Shown here piece after piece: positions 1,977 to 35,078 of a stretch of DNA of 64,000 nt; the stretch's first letter is position 1; every line of letters begins with the position of its first letter. A program made the translations under genes and the position numbers. The stretch comes from a virus: positions 1 through 64,000 of the IMG/VR virus record IMGVR_UViG_3300025467_000013, one strand, 5' to 3'. The notes beneath the pieces are model-generated. The model did no database searches. It saw only the letters and a list, made by a program, of their open reading frames with translations, and was not told the DNA's origin.

Positions 1977-4900
1977 TTATCCTTGGTCAAATGTATTTTT
2001 TGCATTATCAAACGATGCATTATATGTATCTAATGTAACTGTTGTTTTATTACTTTCATATTTATTGATACCGGTATACCAAATACCCGGCGTTTCTTTT
2101 AAGAACAATGCGATTTTGTTATTATCATATAAAATATTAGTTGTAGAATCCCATTCAACGAGTGTTCGTTTGATTACTGTAACTCGTGTACCTACCGCAA
2201 GTAAATTTGTTAATCGAATTTCCTTACTAACCCCATCAACTGCAAAGTCCGCATCAAATCGGATGTCTCCTTCTGGGCTAGTCGGTGCTTGATTAACATT
2301 AAACATGCTATATGGCTCTTTTCTTAACCGTATGTTACCGATAAAGAATGTCCATCGTGTAGAATCATCCCTAAAATATGATGAACTAGTATGTTCACTA
2401 ATGCATCGATAGCTATAAGATCCCACATTAACAATTGTTCCAACTGTATAATGAACGTTTGATGCCCATGTTAATGAATTATCGTATCCGCCAACAAATA
2501 CTTCAATATCATTACATTGCTGATACCCTACCGGAATCGAAGAATACAACTCCCAATATTGGCCATTTGTTGGTACAATAGATGTTGGATTTACTGTACT
2601 AGCAACATATGATAACATGTTGACATAATAGTATCCGTTATACGATACTACATCATTAACCGAATACCCAACGGTGTTACTAAATGAACCCTTTAATGTA
2701 TATCCATAATCAGTAAACCACGAATTGTTAACTGTTAAAGACGGTACAAAATTTATCGGAATTATATGATTATGATTATTAGCATTAGTTATAGTATATT
2801 GTTCAACTATTGTATTATCTGCATACGGAATATTTTCATCTGATCCAATATCTTGTACATACGATCCTGCTTTATGTACAGGAGATACACCGGTACCTAA
2901 TGTGCCTCTTCTTAGTTGTCCTAACACATAAAATATAAGAATACCGTTTTCTCTATGTTCATTTATAGTAAAGTATTCGATGCGTTCTCCTCGAATTTCA
3001 ACTACACCTGGACGATTTTTTGAAGGATTTGGCAGCGTAAAGGTACTAGCATCAACTACTAATATTGTTGTGTCGTTATATAAAAGATCACTATATAATT
3101 TTGAACGTTTATTTAAACTTAATCTCTTATATTGATATCGATTTAACATATCTTTAAACTGCATGTACGATATGCCCGATTCTAATATGTTATCATCAAA
3201 TGTGATTAACGTAAATTCGTCATTAGTATTAGGCGCTGCTGCTAAAGTAACGCTACTTCTGTCGTCATTTAATCTAAAATCAATACTTGGAGTTAAAATC
3301 TTAGAATTCCTAATAATCCAAATATAATCATCGTCAACTACTGTTCGTCCTAATTGTAGTTGTCCATTGAATATTTTTAAATGTGTAAAATAATCAATTG
3401 TATTTGGAGTTAAGGAATTATTAGTCGTTACGTTTATTGCTGTACGATTAATATTTAACACGTCATGTTTATAGAAACTAATAATTTCAACTAATTCATT
3501 ATTATACTCAACATCAAATGTAATCGATGCCACCGACGATGTAGTTGCCGGAGTATAAAAATATCCCGGATGTTGTTTAATACTAATAGTCAACTCGGCA
3601 CCAACATACTTTTTAGCAATAGTTTTTGTAATCTTAATTGACATATTACTGCCGTCGAAAATATAATCAGTATTTGGTTTTAATACCGCTGTTCCACTAA
3701 TAATAACCGAAACATCATTGACGTCGGCGGTGTTAGGTAATGCAGCATCTGATGATATAGTATAAATTAAATCAGCATTAGTAGTTGCTTTCCTAATAGT
3801 GTGATATATGTTATTCGGTCCTTTTAGAATATCTTGACCGACCCGTACAAGCATATTAGATTCATATGGTTTTGAATCACCGATTGTATTCTGCAACGGA
3901 TATACTAGCGATCCGTTAGTCTGGATAGTTTCGGATTCCATTATCGAATATGTTTGATCACTTCCGCTCACAATAATATAACTAATTTGGTCACCGACTG
4001 CTGGAGGAGTATTAAAGTTTATTCCTACTAATTTTGCAAGTTCATATGTGTCATCAGTCTCAAATATTTCATAATTTTTAGAACTTAACATGTTACCGTT
4101 GACAAAAATTGATATGGTTAATAAAGCTAACCAAGGTGCAGTAGTGATATATTGATCTGTCACTCCGTCGCCGACAAACGAGTTAAAGTCTAAAATATTT
4201 GATCCGCTAACCCCAAACGAAGTAATAGAAACAATAGTTCCAGTTATAGGAGGGTCAACTAATACTACTGTTCTAACATTAAATTGATAATCTATAGTGT
4301 ATTCATCCTTAGACAAAATCGTAACATTAGTATATTGGTTAGTAGGATTATCATACCCAGAAATTAATTTAACCAATAATGCTTGTCTGTTATTAGGGTC
4401 TTGTGTAATCTCAAATTCTGTTCGACTACCGTCCCCAATAAATGTATCTGTTTTAATTTTTGCAGAACCGCTAAAAGGACGATCATATACCTTAATTGCA
4501 ACAGTATCAACAACTTGTCCAGGAACAATTTCTTCTGTTGCAGAACTAGTTGTCTGAGTAACGAAGCCATCGCCATCTATAATAATGTCATCCGCTGCAA
4601 GCCCAGTTGCAGTAGTATACACCCCACCGATGTTAGATAATGCTCCGCCATTTATTGCAGTATCATAATCGTCAGGTATAGGAGCCAACGATCCATCACT
4701 TGTACTTTGTCTAAAGATAAATGTATCTCCGATATGTACTGTAAATGTGTTCGGTACGCTAACTGTAGAAGTACGGCCGTCCATTATAATCGGAGGCATT
4801 ATTGCATAAGGGTTATCCCACTGCGCATGTCCTATAAATCCAGGGTTATCTAATCTCACAGCGTTTACTTTATTAGTACCGTTTGGTGCATAATATACAT

Positions 4901-31693: not shown

Positions 31694-31932
31694 TTACAGT
31701 AATGGTAGTTGACTTTTAACAGTTGTATCAATATTTTCCTTAACAACTTCGTACATTGCTTCGCGATCATCGGGGCCATATACATGAAGAAGCTCGTAAA
31801 AAGTAACACCGCCTCTCATATACCAGCTTAATCTAGCTAATTCTTCTTTGAATTCTTTTAATTCTGTATCTAACCTAACTAGATAGCCGTTAATTTCCGA
31901 CGATGCTAATCTAATTAGGTGCGAACGAAAAA
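31694..31932 (-). CDS. Frameshift-only C-terminal extension of the gp26-like protein
   Basis: Reading in the -1 phase from the slippery site gives 77 residues (RSHLIRLASSEINGYL, then KEFKEELARLSWYMRGGVTF, YELLHVYGPDDREAMYEVVK, ending KSQLPLL). There is no ATG, GTG or TTG start before an internal ATG that would leave only 41 residues, and that ATG has no ribosome-binding site. The frame is open back through the slippery heptamer to a stop further upstream. The product would be a 349-residue fusion (272 + 77). The WYMRGGVTFYELL segment resembles C-terminal parts of tail-assembly chaperones in composition. The stop sits 6 nt from the convergent neighbour, leaving no wasted sequence, which supports real coding. 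Confidence 0.75.
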
Positions 31933-31933
31933 A
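31874..31933 (-). promoter_or_regulatory. Programmed -1 ribosomal frameshift signal
   Basis: The minus strand carries T_TTT_TTC (31927-31933) in the frame of the gp26-like gene (AAT TTT TTC). Phe-tRNA can re-pair at both sites after a -1 slip. A 7-nt spacer (31920-31926) is followed by a 9-bp stem: CCTAATTAG (31911-31919) with CTAGTTAGG (31874-31882), one G-U. It is continued inward by TAGC/GCTA (31905-31908, 31884-31887) and CGT/ACG (31900-31902, 31888-31890). Slippery type, spacing and stem are those of known -1 signals. Confidence 0.8.
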
Positions 31934-32742
31934 TTCGATTGGTCCATTTCGATAATAATAGTATTTGTTGATTCACATTCTACGCATACTACGGATTTTT
32001 GAGGTGCGCTCCATAAAGATTGATTACTTTGCAAATGAGTTTTAAGTGTAAGTATTGTTTCGGAGTCGATATTTTCTAACCATTCTTTAATATAAGCCTG
32101 TTCTACTACGGTAGTTGTACTAGTCTTAACAGATTCGATTGAAAAAGCGTAGATTTCGTTTTGTAAATCTGATAATTCTGAGAAAATTCTAGTTAATTCT
32201 TTACCTCTTTCGACTTCGTCGGCGATATCAGGTACTTGTTTTAACTGTTGTTGTATTTGAAAGTTAGAAACTGAAATATTTGTTGACTGTCTATAGTTTA
32301 ACGGGCGGGTATTAATAACTAAATCTTTTATAATTAATCGATTATTATATGATTTTGCCTTATAATCGTCGATTAATGATGGTAACTCGATGTCATATTC
32401 ATTTTCTGCTTTGCATGAAGGACATACATGTGATACTGGGTAAGTAGTACCAAACGATGCAATCTTAATAGCAATTAGTAAAGTATTAAGATCTAACATG
32501 TTCACATCCCAAGCATCCTTAATTGTTGGGCAGCAACTCTCGATAACTTTCACTACCGACTCGCCTATTAACAATGCATCGGGCGTCTTTAGTAGCATTT
32601 CATCCATTCCGGTCATGCTATACACTGGCATATTTTCGATAGCTCCGTGAATAGTATCTTTATTGTAATAAAGACCATGTGAAGGCAAATCAATAAAAAT
32701 TTTTGGCTGTCTAAAATACTGTTGTAATGGATTTTGGCTCAT
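31915..32742 (-). CDS. gp26: gp26-like T4 baseplate family protein; likely tail-assembly chaperone (short form)
   Basis: 275 residues. The motif line KIFIDLPSHGLYY, MTGMDEMLLKTPDALLIGES, LDLNTLLIAIKIASFG, CPSCKAENEYDIEL matches the T4 baseplate (gp26/gp51-type) family, annotated as hub or hub-assembly proteins. Two CxxC pairs (C107/C110, C253/C256) could form a zinc site. The ATG has GGAG 5 nt upstream and a perfect late promoter 29 nt upstream. The zero-frame ends NFFVRT just after a slippery sequence; -1 slipping adds 77 residues. The gene is divergent from the tape-measure gene 62 bases away, comparable to T4, where genes 51 and 26 diverge from the 27-28-29 group. The chaperone role is inferred from the frameshift and this neighbour. 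Confidence 0.8.
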   Translation of the reverse strand: MSQNPLQQYFRQPKIFIDLPSHGLYYNKDTIHGAIENMPVYSMTGMDEMLLKTPDALLIGESVVKVIESCCPTIKDAWDVNMLDLNTLLIAIKIASFGTTYPVSHVCPSCKAENEYDIELPSLIDDYKAKSYNNRLIIKDLVINTRPLNYRQSTNISVSNFQIQQQLKQVPDIADEVERGKELTRIFSELSDLQNEIYAFSIESVKTSTTTVVEQAYIKEWLENIDSETILTLKTHLQSNQSLWSAPQKSVVCVECESTNTIIIEMDQSNFFVRT

Positions 32743-32804: not shown

Positions 32805-35078
32805 ATGGCAAATGAATTAACTCCAGAAAGTTTACGTAACGTACTGTTAGATGTAATAGGTATGTCGGGAACAAGTGGTAGAACCGCCCCTGATGTGAAA
32901 GGAGACTTAGACTGGACTAATCTACAAGATGGCATTGGAAAAACTGCTGGAGCAGCAGGAGTATTGGGTGCAGGCCTGATTAGCGGTAGTAACGCACTTG
33001 GAAAGATTGTACAAGGCTCGTATAGTGCAGGCGATGCGTTAGGTGACATGAATGGAATTGTTGGTGCAGTTGGTGGTAGACTTGGCGAATTTGGTACAGG
33101 ATTAGCAAATGGGCTGAAGAACATTAGTACCACCGCAGTAGAAGTAAACAACAACCTTAAAAAACTTTCTAACAATGGTGTTTATTTTGCAAATGACTTA
33201 GGGAAGTACAGCCAATTAGTTACTGGTGCTAGAACAAGCATGGATCATTTTAATGATCTAGTTACAAAGAACGGTTCTAGTCTAGGGTCGTTTGGCGGTA
33301 ACATGGATCAAGCTGCTGAAAATTATTTAAAATTAGCGCGAGATTTACAACAAAATCCTATAGCAAGTCAACTTGAAAAGACCGGGATGGATATTGACGA
33401 ACTAGGTGATACGTTATTAGCAATCACTGTTCGCTCGAGGAATCTTAATTTGCAAGATGATGCTGCTAAAAGACGGGCAATCGAAGCCTCGTTGAGTCTC
33501 TCGGTCGAAATGGATAATATGTCTCGACTAACAGGTATCAGTCGTCGTGAAATGGAAGACAAGATGCAAAAAGATCGAGAGTCAGCCGCGGCAAAGATTG
33601 CAGAAGCAAGGATGACGCCTGAACAACGTGCAGCGTACGAAAAAGTAAAAGCAGATGCTCTCGCAGCCGGCGGCGATAAAGCTATGACAGTAGCAGCAGA
33701 AGCATTTAGGAATCAAATTTTTGGATTCGGAGGTACAATCGCATCGAAAGCAGGTACAGAAGCAATGCAAGCAGCACCTGAACAGATGGCAATGTATCAA
33801 AACATTGGTATTATGCAAGCCCAAGGGCAAGATACTAACAGACAATTAGCTAAAGTAATAACATCGCAAGAAAACTTATTACAAAGTCAAGATGCTGCGG
33901 TTGCCGCAGCAGGTATGAGTGATTCAGAAAGAACTGCATACTTAGGAGACATTGCATCGCGAGGCGCACTTGCTGAAAAAGTAAAAGAAGCACAAGGTGA
34001 TCCTCAAAGACTAGCTGAATTAATTGCAGCAGAAACTAAAAAAGCATCTGATCAGCGAAAAGAAAATGTTCCGGGACAAAAACCCGAAGATGCATCTGCA
34101 CTGAGCAATGCTATTAATATGGCTGATCGAAGTGTTAGAGACTTTGGTGCAGCAATTGGCACTATGATGCCGGACCTTAATAAATCAGTTGGACAATCTG
34201 TAAATGAGTTTAATTTGCTTACTAAAGCGATACAATTAGCAAGATCGAGTCCCGAAGAAGTTAAGAAGACTGCGGGACTGGGCAACGTTGAAAATATTTT
34301 TAAGGGTGAAACCGAAGGAAGGGCTAATGGATCTTTAGGATCTACTGGTAACTGGATTGAAGACTTTGGTGCAGGCACATTAATGGAACTGCATGGTAAA
34401 GAAGGTGTTGTAACTGAAGGACAATTTAATAATCTAAAAGAACAAATTGAAAGTATTATGACTAGTAACGGAGTAGTACCAACCGTTAGTAATTTTAGTA
34501 CTGACGATTTTCTTTCGCAGATTAAAACTGCAACTAATCCATTACCTATAAACGATAGCGGAATATTTAACGATTTCCTCTCTCAAGTTAAAACTACAAA
34601 TAATGAATCACCTAAGGAAGAAAACGGGTTCTTTAATGATATTACTAACATGTTTTATGATGTTGGTAATATTGCAGGTAAAATGTTCGACGAAGTTACT
34701 ACTACAACAAAAACTCTAGGAGACAATGTTAAGTACCAACCAACAAAAAACGAGTTAACTCCTGCTGAACAAGAAGCAAAACTTCGCGCATTAAACACTC
34801 CGGAAAAAATTGCAGAAAAACGAGCTGCTCTAGAAAAAGAACAAGCAAATAAAAAAATCGAAGAACAAAAAGCAAAAGCGCAGAAAAATCGCGAAAATGC
34901 CAACCCGGAAGAATCTAAAAAAGAACCAGTGCCGGCAAATGTATCCCTAAACGATCTTCGAGATCAATTGATTGAATTAAATAAAAATGTAAAAGACCTA
35001 ATTACTCATACTGATCGTGTTGCAGACCATACTGGAAGGCAACTTACTGAGACGCGGAAAGGCGGCAGTAGAATATAA
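32805..35078 (+). CDS. Tape-measure protein
   Basis: 757 residues. The Gly/Ala-rich amphipathic helical N-terminal part (KTAGAAGVLGAGLISGSNAL) is followed by long Ala/Glu/Lys helices (about 200-460), a conserved tape-measure-like patch (WIEDFGAGTLMELHGKEGVV near 515-535), and a Lys/Glu coiled tail (about 650-710). The FGAGT...LHGKEGVV patch recurs in tape-measure proteins of large myoviruses. By the usual rule of about 1.5 angstrom per residue it would set a tail of roughly 110 nm, which is an estimate only. It is the functional counterpart of T4 gp29. It lies next to the frameshifted gp26-like gene (divergent) and before the portal gene. Confidence 0.75.
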   Translation: MANELTPESLRNVLLDVIGMSGTSGRTAPDVKGDLDWTNLQDGIGKTAGAAGVLGAGLISGSNALGKIVQGSYSAGDALGDMNGIVGAVGGRLGEFGTGLANGLKNISTTAVEVNNNLKKLSNNGVYFANDLGKYSQLVTGARTSMDHFNDLVTKNGSSLGSFGGNMDQAAENYLKLARDLQQNPIASQLEKTGMDIDELGDTLLAITVRSRNLNLQDDAAKRRAIEASLSLSVEMDNMSRLTGISRREMEDKMQKDRESAAAKIAEARMTPEQRAAYEKVKADALAAGGDKAMTVAAEAFRNQIFGFGGTIASKAGTEAMQAAPEQMAMYQNIGIMQAQGQDTNRQLAKVITSQENLLQSQDAAVAAAGMSDSERTAYLGDIASRGALAEKVKEAQGDPQRLAELIAAETKKASDQRKENVPGQKPEDASALSNAINMADRSVRDFGAAIGTMMPDLNKSVGQSVNEFNLLTKAIQLARSSPEEVKKTAGLGNVENIFKGETEGRANGSLGSTGNWIEDFGAGTLMELHGKEGVVTEGQFNNLKEQIESIMTSNGVVPTVSNFSTDDFLSQIKTATNPLPINDSGIFNDFLSQVKTTNNESPKEENGFFNDITNMFYDVGNIAGKMFDEVTTTTKTLGDNVKYQPTKNELTPAEQEAKLRALNTPEKIAEKRAALEKEQANKKIEEQKAKAQKNRENANPEESKKEPVPANVSLNDLRDQLIELNKNVKDLITHTDRVADHTGRQLTETRKGGSRI

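Follow-up and report, generated by a model that had tools for sequence, protein, structure and literature searches.

In phage lambda, one tail assembly chaperone is made in two lengths, gpG being the short form and gpGT a minor long form that arises by a -1 frameshift (reviewed in PMC5009743). In T4, assembly requires gp51, yet the finished particle lacks it (PMC3004832), a pattern that fits a chaperone. Tail assembly chaperones were identified in T4-like phages in a 2022 study (Vladimirov, Gautam and Davidson, Virology 566:9-15), which we take as it is described in PMC10885494 and PMC12846349. According to the first of these, the PRFect paper, some T4-like phages dispense with frameshifting and instead carry a short gene plus a longer fusion gene; the second (2025) cites the same study for poly-T -1 slippery sequences in the TAC-N genes of T4-like phages. 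An earlier note on the DNA described here suggested that a -1 signal might be new to the gp26/gp51 family. Because poly-T slippery sites in T4-like TAC-N genes are cited in this way to the 2022 study, a signal of this kind is already published and the present locus is a further example. No earlier description of the frameshift in jumbo phages or cyanophages was found in the open library of papers that was searched.

The DNA analysed (the window) is a stretch of 64,000 nucleotides belonging to a 75.6-kb IMG/VR virus record, which encodes a T4-type portal, prohead protease and major head protein. Three features on its minus strand define the locus.

31915 to 32742, minus strand: zero-frame ORF of 275 residues, a gp26-like short tail assembly chaperone (PF12322, phrog_150)
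31927 to 31933, minus strand: slippery heptamer T_TTT_TTC in the zero frame, conserved in relatives
31694 to 31927, minus strand: -1 frame extension of 77 codons and a stop, a conserved helical domain with a WYMRGG motif, identified by its open frame and conservation

The 275-residue product matches the Pfam profile PF12322 with 46 bits against a curated cut-off of 24.5 (E = 6.5e-12) and the PHROG family phrog_150 with E = 3.7e-15, and it ends ...SNFFVRT. The gene had been called a gp26-like T4 baseplate gene; the family is correct, but 'baseplate' is an older name, and the gene is better described as a tail assembly chaperone. The heptamer is phased T (31933), TTT (31932-31930) and TTC (31929-31927), within the codons AAT TTT TTC near the end of the gene, and so lies in the frame that had been claimed for it. 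It is a conserved zero-frame heptamer of the X_XXY_YYZ form found at canonical -1 sites, and in the 19,879 codons of the window's main ORFs an in-frame T_TTT_TTC occurs only here. No Rfam element scored above its cut-off at the slip site, the sole match being to U6 and far below its cut-off.

Beyond the slip, the -1 frame reads RSHLIR...LPLL for 77 codons to a TAA at 31696-31694, giving a fusion of 349 residues. Both the length of this open frame and the pairing of a 349-residue fusion with a 275-residue form agree with the earlier note, as does the lack of a start proper to the extension: in the window, the first ATG, GTG or TTG that the -1 frame meets past the slip is an internal ATG, 37 codons in, which sits within the conserved WYMRGG motif. 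At the level of sequence, the gene has the G/GT arrangement, in which a -1 shift near the 3' end would yield a short product nested within a long one. Among 15 aligned loci, tail residues R1, K27, W35, M37, R38, G39, N65 and T69 are invariant. Over 27 divergent loci, 34, 21 and 44% of the differences fall at -1 codon positions 1, 2 and 3, respectively, and there are no stops in the -1 frame compared with 186 and 269 in the other two frames. Judged from these codon-position differences and the stop-free frame, the -1 tail is evolving under selection at the protein level. Searched alone, the tail has no match in Pfam and only a weak one in PHROG (E = 0.078).

In some records (L005, L028 and L030) the -1 ORF is annotated as a separate small gene, which would suit two independent genes, translation of the second either beginning at a start codon of its own or depending on reinitiation once the short gene has ended. 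We regard this as very unlikely, since the window offers no start after the slip before the ATG described above, the first post-slip residue is an invariant arginine in the aligned tails and T4-type gp51 spans the equivalent junction as one unbroken protein. An independent small gene was rejected for lack of an early start.

Downstream of the heptamer, a putative stimulatory stem can be drawn as follows.

31921 to 31926, minus strand: 6-nt spacer between the heptamer and the stem
31909 to 31920, minus strand: 5' arm of the 12-bp stem, containing the zero-frame stop TAA (31917-31915)
31873 to 31884, minus strand: 3' arm of the stem, with compensatory changes at five of the 12 pairs among 20 loci

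The earlier note had placed a 9-bp stem here after a 7-nt spacer. A stem is indeed present, but it consists of 12 contiguous pairs (31920-31909 with 31884-31873) and starts 6 nt after the heptamer. The 65 nt 3' of the heptamer have a mean folding z of -1.9 relative to shuffles, compared with -0.3 and -0.5 for control stretches. The test for compensatory changes covered the window's own clade only (20 loci), in which 90.8% of cells are paired, the covariation score was reached by none of 500 shuffles and the pairing collapses on sliding by one base; RNAalifold recovers the identical helix unprompted in this clade. A covarying stem a few nucleotides past the heptamer, as at canonical -1 sites, is thus present in the window clade. 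Sister clades often have a different stem at similar spacing, and in some relatives it is weak or absent.

The earlier note had proposed an alignment of homologues as a check, and in this comparison both the heptamer and the -1 frame proved to be conserved. The heptamer is present in all 82 window-type IMG/VR loci (80 from a profile scan together with L011 and L012) and in all 80 cyanophage-type loci from a second IMG/VR scan started from a cyanophage gene, although many loci in both sets are closely related and the counts do not represent independent events. One window-type locus, L011, shows no difference from the window over 1,800 bases and, for this reason, is taken to be the same or a nearly identical virus. 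The heptamer and open -1 frame were scored by script in 81 of the 82 window-type loci, in two or three of which the contig runs out within the tail or just where the tail finishes. In the remaining locus, L044, both are also present, behind an early stop; this in-frame stop interrupts the short form (3180-3330), with the heptamer and -1 tail intact downstream of it, and reflects either a sequencing error or a broken copy.

A single-base sequencing or assembly error in one long gene would likewise split the frame. The chance that such an error accounts for the arrangement is negligible, because the same split and heptamer recur throughout the window-type (82 loci) and cyanophage-type (80 loci) sets and also in isolates that were sequenced independently. 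The comparative evidence confirms the slip signal as real, far beyond chance. A chance slip site was ruled out by its uniqueness in the window together with the fixed heptamer in relatives: the Phe-Phe pair at the slip position is encoded as T_TTT_TTC in 81 of 81 relatives, whereas of 19 further Phe-Phe pairs elsewhere in these genes not one is.

The conserved homopolymer run at the site could also be read as a substrate for RNA polymerase, with the long form arising from polymerase slippage on the six T rather than from ribosomal slippage. Several observations make this improbable. Scoring by script found the site phased as X_XXY_YYZ, in the form T_TTT_TTC, in 161 of 161 loci. Slippage by the polymerase would be favoured by a seventh T, but none is ever seen at the site, although TTT is the commoner phenylalanine codon in the relatives' chaperone genes (690 TTT versus 168 TTC). 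Polymerases generally slip poorly on runs of only six, and the covarying downstream stem suits a slip by the ribosome.

Ribosomal slippage at this site is further supported by its conservation across very distant phage lineages, which bears out the earlier proposal of a programmed -1 site in the gp26-like family analogous to lambda G/GT. All eight of the named jumbo phages compared (Atu_ph07, Phosso, PA5oct, XaC1, 121Q, Munch, CBB and BF) have an in-frame TTTTTTC and an open -1 frame, with short forms sharing 25-30% protein identity with that of the window. The heptamer is also found in Aeromonas phiAS5, Vibrio VH7D, Synechococcus Sf-FS3 and Bellamy, and Rhizobium IC12; in RL38J1 the site reads TTTTTTG. 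A separate observation concerns L113 and L116 (Ackermannviridae), L115 (Vibrio K369) and L030 (Pseudomonas Cygsa01), which keep the -1 extension with a site reading ATT_TTC or CTT_TTC at the end of the gp26-like gene. These are not classic X_XXY_YYZ sites, and such lineages may slip on one tRNA or by another mechanism.

The AlphaFold2 model of the short form is confident (pLDDT 88) and that of the tail is helical (pLDDT 87). No PDB entry matched at E <= 0.001 in the search for a solved tail assembly chaperone fold (best E = 0.88), and the best-matching predicted viral proteins are T4-like (gp26-type) baseplate hub proteins of phages. In BFVD, the short form also resembles predicted proteins of phiEaH2, RSF1, RP12, phiRSL1 and PaBG (about 315-690 residues, no function named), which may be unrecognised tail assembly chaperones.

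The chaperone gene adjoins a divergent reading frame.

32805 to 35078, plus strand: divergent ORF of 757 residues, compared with neighbour annotation in jumbo phages

This neighbour has no Pfam, PHROG or phage match and no relative in named phages. At the matching position, several jumbo phages have an ORF annotated as a structural protein. A tape measure gene was not identified within the window, and the 757-residue protein could be the tape measure protein.

In our view, the gene very probably encodes one tail assembly chaperone in two lengths by means of a -1 slip on T_TTT_TTC, an interpretation drawn from comparative sequence data. Most ribosomes would stop after residue 275 to give the short form, in the role of lambda gpG and T4 gp26, and some would slip back by one base on the heptamer, aided by the stem 6 nt downstream. 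The slip would add 77 residues, giving a long form of 349 residues in the role of lambda gpGT and T4 gp51, presumably as the minor product. The short form would cover the tape measure protein, and tail tube subunits would be recruited by the long form through its helical tail. One frameshifting gene would do the work of T4's gp26 (short) and gp51 (long).

Comparison with the T4 proteins indicates how the two arrangements may correspond. PF12322 is present in one copy in the window record and in one copy in each of the eight jumbo genomes, compared with two in T4 (gp26 and gp51). At the corresponding Phe-Phe, T4 gp26 terminates with KEFFELL and has no slippery heptamer, and T4 gp51 runs on into a tail. 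The cyanophage-type fusion (gene 26 plus the -1 tail) aligns with the T4-type gp51 family with an hhalign probability of 98.8% (E = 5e-17), and this alignment spans the slip junction and the tail. For the jumbo-type fusion the alignment also runs through the tail but is weak (probability 8%, E = 0.0043). Given the alignment of the cyanophage-type fusion across the junction, the most fitting reading is that the 'gp51' annotated on its own in cyanophages represents the frameshift tail and that T4 gp51 is the long form encoded directly. We would suggest, tentatively and as a single proposal, that the frameshift of the jumbo lineage typified by Atu_ph07, 121Q and PA5oct and of uncultured relatives of that lineage, in which the stems are clade-specific, is undescribed and that a single frameshifting gene is ancestral, T4 gp26 and gp51 having arisen by duplication and loss of the slip site. 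Evolution would then have run from one frameshifting gene to T4's two genes.

These comparisons allow annotations to be corrected in many T4-related phages, where the extension now appears as a hypothetical protein of its own, goes by the name 'gp51' or is left out; the roles of T4 gp26 and gp51 also become testable as those of short and long chaperone forms. Among known systems, T4 gp26/gp51 shares with the window gene the PF12322 family and the pairing of short and long forms, with gp26 ending near the slip-site Phe-Phe and gp51 carrying the tail. It differs in having two genes without the heptamer where the window has one gene with a -1 site, and in the length of the short form (208 residues in T4 and 275 in the window). 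The Vandenendeviridae and Andersonviridae chaperone genes (PMC12846349) are likewise myovirus genes with a poly-T slip site at the 3' end and an uninterrupted -1 frame, but belong to other phage families and use the motif GTTTTT rather than T_TTT_TTC. Lambda gpG/gpGT is alike in that a -1 shift gives one chaperone in two lengths. The likeness lies in the gene scheme; the lambda heptamer differs from T_TTT_TTC, and the window gene adjoins the divergent 757-residue ORF.
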